From: Planctomycetaceae bacterium
Lineage (GTDB): Bacteria; Planctomycetota; Planctomycetia; Planctomycetales; Planctomycetaceae
DNA length: 64,000 nt
Reading direction: 5' to 3'
Assembly (NCBI GenBank): GCA_021732995.1
Contig: JAKFWA010000046.1
Span: 1-64,000, forward strand
Both the position numbers and the translations under genes were made by a program. Shown piece after piece: positions 61,993 to 63,794 of this stretch (its first letter is position 1; the number at the start of each line of letters is the position of its first letter). Below the pieces are notes generated by a model that was not told the DNA's origin, did no database searches, and saw nothing but the letters and a program-made list of their open reading frames with translations.

Positions 61993-62577
61993 ATGGCAGT
62001 GGCGTGCGGGAGTGCAGGGGAGCAATGCAACTGTGACGACGGCTTGCGTGACATTCGCCGTGAGCGCAGTCTGCGACAAAACACGCTGGCCCTCACCGGA
62101 ATATGGTGCTTGCTGACTTGTACCTTTGGCCTCGCGATGTGGATGGAGCACATCGCTCCGGATGAAGCCAACGGACCTCAGAACATGGTCCCGCAACTGA
62201 TCCTGCTCTGTGCAAGTCTCGTGGCTTCAATCGTGGGCTGTGTGGTGACCGTTGGAGTTTTCCGATTCTCGCCGGGCGTCAAAAAGCTGCTGTGCGGCTA
62301 TTGCATCGTCTCTCTAATCTTGTTTCCGCTAGGCACAGCCTTCAGCAGACTGATCTTCCTTGAGGCGATCTGGAAAACATCGCCATCTCTTTTAAGCGTC
62401 GAGTATCAGCGTGCGGTCGCTCGTTCTTCGAAGAATCCGCATCGCATGTCCGCTATGGGATGGATCGCCGTCGTCTTGTTGCTGTGCCTCGTGGCTGCAT
62501 TCTGTTGGGTTATCCAATTGCCGGAAGACGTCCGTCACATGAACGCGCGAGCGAGACAGTCTCAAATGCAGCAGTGA
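61993..62577 (+). CDS. Small multispanning membrane protein of unknown function
   Basis: A 194-residue protein with a Cys-rich N-terminus (ACGSAGEQCNCDDGL) and about four hydrophobic segments (TLALTGIWCLLTCTFGLAMW; LILLCASLVASIVGCVVTVG; LLCGYCIVSLILFPLG; IAVVLLLCLVAAFCWVI). Start ATG at 61993 is preceded by AAGGATGAG. No family recognised, so a wrong start is possible. The coding signal is weaker than in its neighbours. Confidence 0.6.
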   Translation: MAVACGSAGEQCNCDDGLRDIRRERSLRQNTLALTGIWCLLTCTFGLAMWMEHIAPDEANGPQNMVPQLILLCASLVASIVGCVVTVGVFRFSPGVKKLLCGYCIVSLILFPLGTAFSRLIFLEAIWKTSPSLLSVEYQRAVARSSKNPHRMSAMGWIAVVLLLCLVAAFCWVIQLPEDVRHMNARARQSQMQQ

Positions 62578-62745: not shown

Positions 62746-63197
62746 TCAGCAATATCGCTCCAGCGCTGAGACCAGTGGGTGATCATCATCAACCAGGCCA
62801 CGCACAGCAGATGTGAACCCAGCCATGTCGGACAAGAACAGGGGAACATAGATCAAGCCGCCACCGTCTACGGACAGTGTCAGATACCGGAGTCCGAATA
62901 ACTTACTCGCCGGATTTGCTCGATCTCGTCCCAGGTGACGGTGCGGTAGATGCCCCAGAAGTTGTAGCTTCGAATTGCGTCTGGCAACACATAAACGGGA
63001 CACAAGGAAACAGTGACAGCTAACATCGCGCCCGAACCCAACGTGGCACCGAGCGCTGGAAGTGCCGCAGACAAAGGGCGTCCTGTTATGTAGTTGAGTC
63101 CAGTCGCGACCGCCCCGATCAGTCCCCAGAATTTGACGTTCCAGCGCCACACTACGGAGAAAGACGAACGAAACACCAGTTGCTGATTCGCCTTCAT
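62746..63197 (-). pseudogene. Frameshifted small membrane protein with a bacterial PH-like domain
   Basis: On the minus strand from ATG 63197 (GGAGGG just upstream) the frame encodes two hydrophobic segments and then VTWDEIEQIRRV, and stops at 62880. The homologous continuation KLFGLRYLTLSVDGGGLIYV lies in the next frame and runs to a stop at 62746 with SALERYC. Adding one A to the AA pair at 62903-62904 joins both to about 150 residues: two-TM protein with a PH-like tail. This may be a sequencing error or a genuine one-base deletion. Family function is unknown. Confidence 0.75.
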
Positions 63198-63300
63198 GAA
63201 TCCCTCCGACGCCTCATAAGAGTGTGGCAGCGCGATCATACTTTGCTGATTTCAACTCTCCCGTAGGGCGGCGGCGAGACAGATCTTCAACCGGCATTTT

Positions 63301-63519
63301 CTATTTTGGATCAATGGACTGCCCGGTCGTAACGGGCGTTTTTGCGAGTGAACTCACCTCTCGAAACAGAATCATCAACGCTGCAGAAGTCGCCATCGCG
63401 CCTGTAGCAGCCAGGAAAAAACCGAACGGGAGCGTATCGCCTCTGTTGGGGAACAGACTGCTCATCGCAATGAACAGAGGCCCAAAGCTCGCACAAGCGG
63501 GAAATAAAGCTTTCGACAT
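63301..63519 (-). CDS. Small two-span membrane protein
   Basis: A 72-residue protein with two hydrophobic segments (ALFPACASFGPLFIAMSSLF and FGFFLAATGAMATSAALMILF) separated by a short loop (PNRGDTLP). The ATG at 63519 is preceded by GGAGAAT; an in-frame ATG at 63543 lacks this. No family recognised. It lies 103 bases upstream of the frameshifted gene on the same strand, and may form a unit with it. Confidence 0.65.
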   Translation of the reverse strand: MSKALFPACASFGPLFIAMSSLFPNRGDTLPFGFFLAATGAMATSAALMILFREVSSLAKTPVTTGQSIDPK

Positions 63520-63794
63520 CTCTGATTCTCCGAAGTCTTTCATAACGCAGTTGTTCGATCGCTTCGTCGACTATCATTCGCCGGAGAGCACACAACACGA
63601 CATCGACCGGCGATAACGCATCAATCGCAGAATGGACTTCTGGCTCATTGAGCTTTTGCAGTCCAATCGCCCCATGACCAGCTTAGCCTGCACGTGCCGT
63701 AGGTGCTGATGACTCTACTGCAAGGCGTTCTGCAGCACACGTTGCGCTGAGTTCCTGAGAGTTCCCGCCTGACGTCTGAACCGTAGGGGAAGCC

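Follow-up and report, generated by a model that had tools for sequence, protein, structure and literature searches.

A -1 frame break in a gene for a probable membrane-anchored PH-like protein of a Planctomycetaceae bacterium

Near the end of the stretch of DNA examined here (positions 1 to 64,000 of contig JAKFWA010000046.1 from a Planctomycetaceae bacterium, 64,000 nucleotides, referred to as the window), a small gene on the minus strand is read in two frames. The locus raises the question of whether the two frames make up one gene and, if so, whether the break is a mutation in the organism, an error in the sequence or a feature that the cell uses.

The split reading frame

When the sequence was read directly, the 5' frame was found to run from the ATG at 63197 for 105 amino acids to a TGA at 62882-62880. 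It encodes MKANQQLVFRSSF...WDEIEQIRRV, followed by a non-homologous tail of seven residues, SYSDSGI. A GGAGG (63207-63203) lies five bases before this ATG, and an alternative upstream ATG is present at 63239. The -1 frame from 62904 reads KLFGLRYLTLSVDGGGLIYVPLFLSDM...SALERYC (its start is also given as KLFGLRYLTLSVDGGG) and stops at 62748-62746. The residues KLFGLRYL form the continuation after RRV in this frame, and base 62904 is common to both frames. The splitting of the frame, a 5' product ending in IRRV plus an alien tail, and the next frame continuing to SALERYC had been described in an earlier, sequence-only reading, and these elements and their coordinates are correct. The features of the locus are as follows.

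62880..63197, minus strand: 5' part, with predicted membrane helices and the first PH-like strands, the 7-residue out-of-frame tail and the TGA (from sequence and homology)
62902..62906, minus strand: junction, where the last 5' codon (62906-62904) and the first -1 codon (62904-62902) have one base in common (from sequence and homology)
62746..62904, minus strand: 3' part in the -1 frame, predicted to supply the remaining strands of the PH-like domain and its C-terminal helices, with SALERYC as its end (from sequence and homology)
63203..63207, minus strand: GGAGG, likely ribosome-binding site for the ATG at 63197 (from sequence)

In a protein search of 99 genomes, both pieces matched the same homologues, consecutively, and when the directly joined halves were aligned with these relatives the point of joining required neither a gap nor an extra residue. 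As the halves match in succession and join without a gap, they represent the split of one chain rather than a chance arrangement. The codon-usage signal of the gene is weak: the 5' frame scored best in four of the five sixty-base blocks before the junction, and the -1 frame in only one of the three after it, the last of which extends past the stop.

The gene sits in a stretch of small ORFs between a gene that we take, from its sequence, to be ftsY and a long gene whose start lies outside the window, past its end. In the one genome of the same genus that was searched (G001), ftsY alone of this stretch was matched at length, and the approximately 1.5 kb of available sequence upstream of its ftsY is arranged differently from the window. 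Convergent to the broken gene, on the plus strand, is an ORF of 194 residues (61993-62577) with several hydrophobic stretches. Just upstream of the broken gene, a short ORF on the minus strand (63301-63543) looks like a real small membrane-protein gene, with matches among 198 genomes at 58%, 57% and 47% identity in G002, G096 and G048, respectively, and a weak one in G077. It does not form a fixed pair with the PH-like gene, as the two are about 2 Mb apart in G048.

Relatives of the gene in other Planctomycetia

The best relative of the joined protein among the 99 genomes was found in G092, where residues 5-149 could be aligned at 41% identity within one open frame. Both halves match this protein in single-protein searches, which are independent of the family profile. 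The profile was built from an eight-member alignment that included the joined proteins of the window and of a second split copy (G089, described below), and it matched 39 of 397 genomes of the class at E <= 0.01. The two window pieces occupy profile positions 11-108 (E 5.6e-30) and 108-160 (E 4.4e-14), values obtained with a profile that included the window sequence.

At E <= 1e-15 there were 22 genomes, eight of them rows of the profile itself. In 20 a single frame covers most of the profile; the two with the gene in two pieces, the window genome and G089, are among those eight. One of the genomes counted as intact (G313) had a flagged TAA, which is its own terminator. The remaining 17 of the 39 genomes, with weaker matches (E 1.6e-10 to 0.007), were left out of this count, since many of them match only part of the profile. 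They include G284, with a TGA inside its match, and G265, where the match is C-terminal and the contig seems to end beside it. Comparison with homologues from other planctomycetes, which had been put forward as a check, gave 20 strong matches that stay in one frame across the junction and continue past the stop seen in the window. This supports the earlier proposal that a one-base loss, by mutation or error, has split a single chain.

When 170 genomes from the family to which the window belongs were searched, matches were obtained in 16 genomes other than its own, of which 11 had been counted in the 22. No stop lies inside the matched stretch in 15 of the 16, several of these matches covering only part of the protein. 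In the complete genome of Limnoglobus roseus (G220) the place of the junction is crossed in one frame by a protein 54% identical to that of G089. The identities of the window protein to its relatives lie at approximately 41-51%, and it is without a close orthologue. When contigs were scanned for the family, the joined protein as query gave no match, and a second scan gave two loci. By sequence similarity, both frames are pieces of one protein family of other Planctomycetia.

Architecture of the protein and likeness to known families

The gene product had been described as a PH-like protein with two transmembrane helices. In the intact G092 protein, hydropathy reveals two hydrophobic stretches, whereas in the 5' piece of the window only the second passes the same threshold. 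An AlphaFold2 model of the Limnoglobus relative, made from a five-row alignment and of modest confidence (pLDDT 67.9, pTM 0.46), shows two long helices followed by six strands and by helices at the C-terminal end. A Foldseek search of the PDB with this model returned mostly proteins with PH-like domains among the 50 rows listed, none reaching E 0.001 and with TM-scores by query length of about 0.2-0.33; the matched proteins (GRK2, SSRP1, Rtt106, MTMR6, PTB and FERM domains) are ones that we take to hold PH-like folds. A sequence-profile search for a solved structure found none at E <= 10.

Among known families, the Pfam family matched by the most members was bPH_6 (PF10756, Bacterial PH domain), with three of 16 members and a best E of 0.0089, and it differs in giving only weak E-values among the members. 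A lower E (0.00026) was obtained for PRD1_DD, with a single member, and further Pfam and NCBIfam families each match one or two. The Pfam search gave no match for the joined window protein or for its two pieces. In NCBIfam the most-matched family was the STM3941 family (NF041635), which is of similar length (a profile of 157) and was matched by five of 16 members with a best E of 0.00096. The first member scored 13.9 bits against a cut-off of 40 bits, for that member a borderline similarity and not membership. The likeness of the model to the PH-like superfold, in which strands are closed by a C-terminal helix, is tentative (pLDDT 67.9, no E <= 0.001). A limited literature search gave no use of the term "bacterial PH domain" in the portions of text available for the matches listed.

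These lines are individually weak. As Pfam and NCBIfam matches, hydropathy, the model and the structure matches agree, the family probably consists of proteins with two membrane helices and a PH-like domain, anchored in the membrane. The earlier description is plausible for the family, and the 5' piece of the window shows the second helix alone at the threshold used. Our likeliest guess is that the intact protein would be a membrane-anchored PH-like adaptor that binds protein or lipid. In the Limnoglobus model, the junction maps close to the end of strand 92-100, immediately ahead of the turn that leads into strand 103-110. By this model, the final two PH-like strands and the C-terminal helices would be missing from the product as read.

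Origin of the frame break

We lean towards the view that the organism itself recently lost one base and that this deletion broke an accessory gene. In this reading, the small gene, coding for a PH-like protein anchored in the membrane, underwent a net frame change of -1 near position 62904, and the resulting 105-residue product, ending inside the PH-like domain without its last strands and C-terminal helices, would probably be non-functional. A recent break fits the observation that both halves still match family positions.

It is also quite possible, if somewhat less probable, that the organism has an intact gene and that the draft sequence has lost a base through a sequencing or assembly error. 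The window genome is a draft of 135 contigs, and the other split copy likewise comes from a draft, of 230 contigs. Of the genomes with the 22 strong matches, none of the eight single-contig ones and two of the 14 drafts are split, a difference that is well within chance. Against an error, the junction holds two A's and no long homopolymer, so that its earlier description as a homopolymer-like site goes too far. The long ORFs of the window and the ORFs listed in the gaps between them likewise include no other obviously split gene, as judged from the ORF lists themselves.

The possibility that the two frames give two functional products, with the 5' protein short by nature or the 3' part a small gene in its own right, appears improbable. 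Neither frame is closed near the junction, and a stop of its own terminates the 5' piece, but the break falls inside one predicted domain and the halves are encoded as one chain in 20 of the 22 strong matches.

The second split copy was found in a metagenome bin of Isosphaera sp. isolate PR.3.33 (G089, PNKH01000097.1), which belongs to another family and shows 45% and 51% identity to the two window pieces. The gene there shifts from the frame in which it starts to the -1 frame next to four consecutive G's, and this break of its own (L076, 3001-3434) lies within a few codons of the window junction in the alignment. In a simulation, two independent, evenly spread breaks fell within three codons of each other and in the same direction in about 2% of cases, a value computed after the coincidence had been seen and subject to the caveat that mid-gene breaks are those easily noticed. 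The shared direction and nearly identical aligned place are what favour programmed -1 ribosomal frameshifting, which would yield both a full-length and a short product. Candidate signals were therefore sought at both sites. The only in-frame X XXY YYZ heptamer of the window gene lies approximately 57 codons upstream of the junction, and the G089 frame has none. With no such slippery heptamer at either junction, no downstream fold (76 bases from each junction, pseudoknots aside) that exceeds shuffled sequence in stability (z 0.73 and 1.14), and relatives such as those of G092 and Limnoglobus roseus that are unbroken and need no shift, programmed frameshifting was judged unlikely, and it would be a very remote prospect that a subset of the family uses a -1 frameshift lacking a classical slippery site, of which the window and the Isosphaera sp. 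bin would be naturally occurring cases at one shared position in the fold.

Other copies bear on whether the gene is needed. In another genus of the window's family, an otherwise recognisable copy (G416, L084) has an in-frame TAG mid-way, and a genome of the same genus as that one (G417) has no stop in its match. Protein, profile and family searches of G001 found no relative of the window gene. The absence of a match in G001, the split copy in G089 and the in-frame stop in G416 suggest, from sequence comparison, that the gene may be dispensable and can be lost, which counts in favour of a genuine deletion. In the window's genome, a DNA search at E <= 0.001 for a second copy found the gene alone, and a protein search of G000 gave one further weak match (E 0.513). 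No relative was found in plasmid records with the G092 protein as query, or in viral contigs with a three-member alignment as query.

What is seen here is a commonplace gene break or a slip in sequencing, and not a new mechanism. In annotation, the two frames are best recorded as a single, interrupted gene. The locus would be of broader interest only if cells do produce the full-length protein, and the family appears to be a small, apparently dispensable group of membrane proteins that decays now and then.
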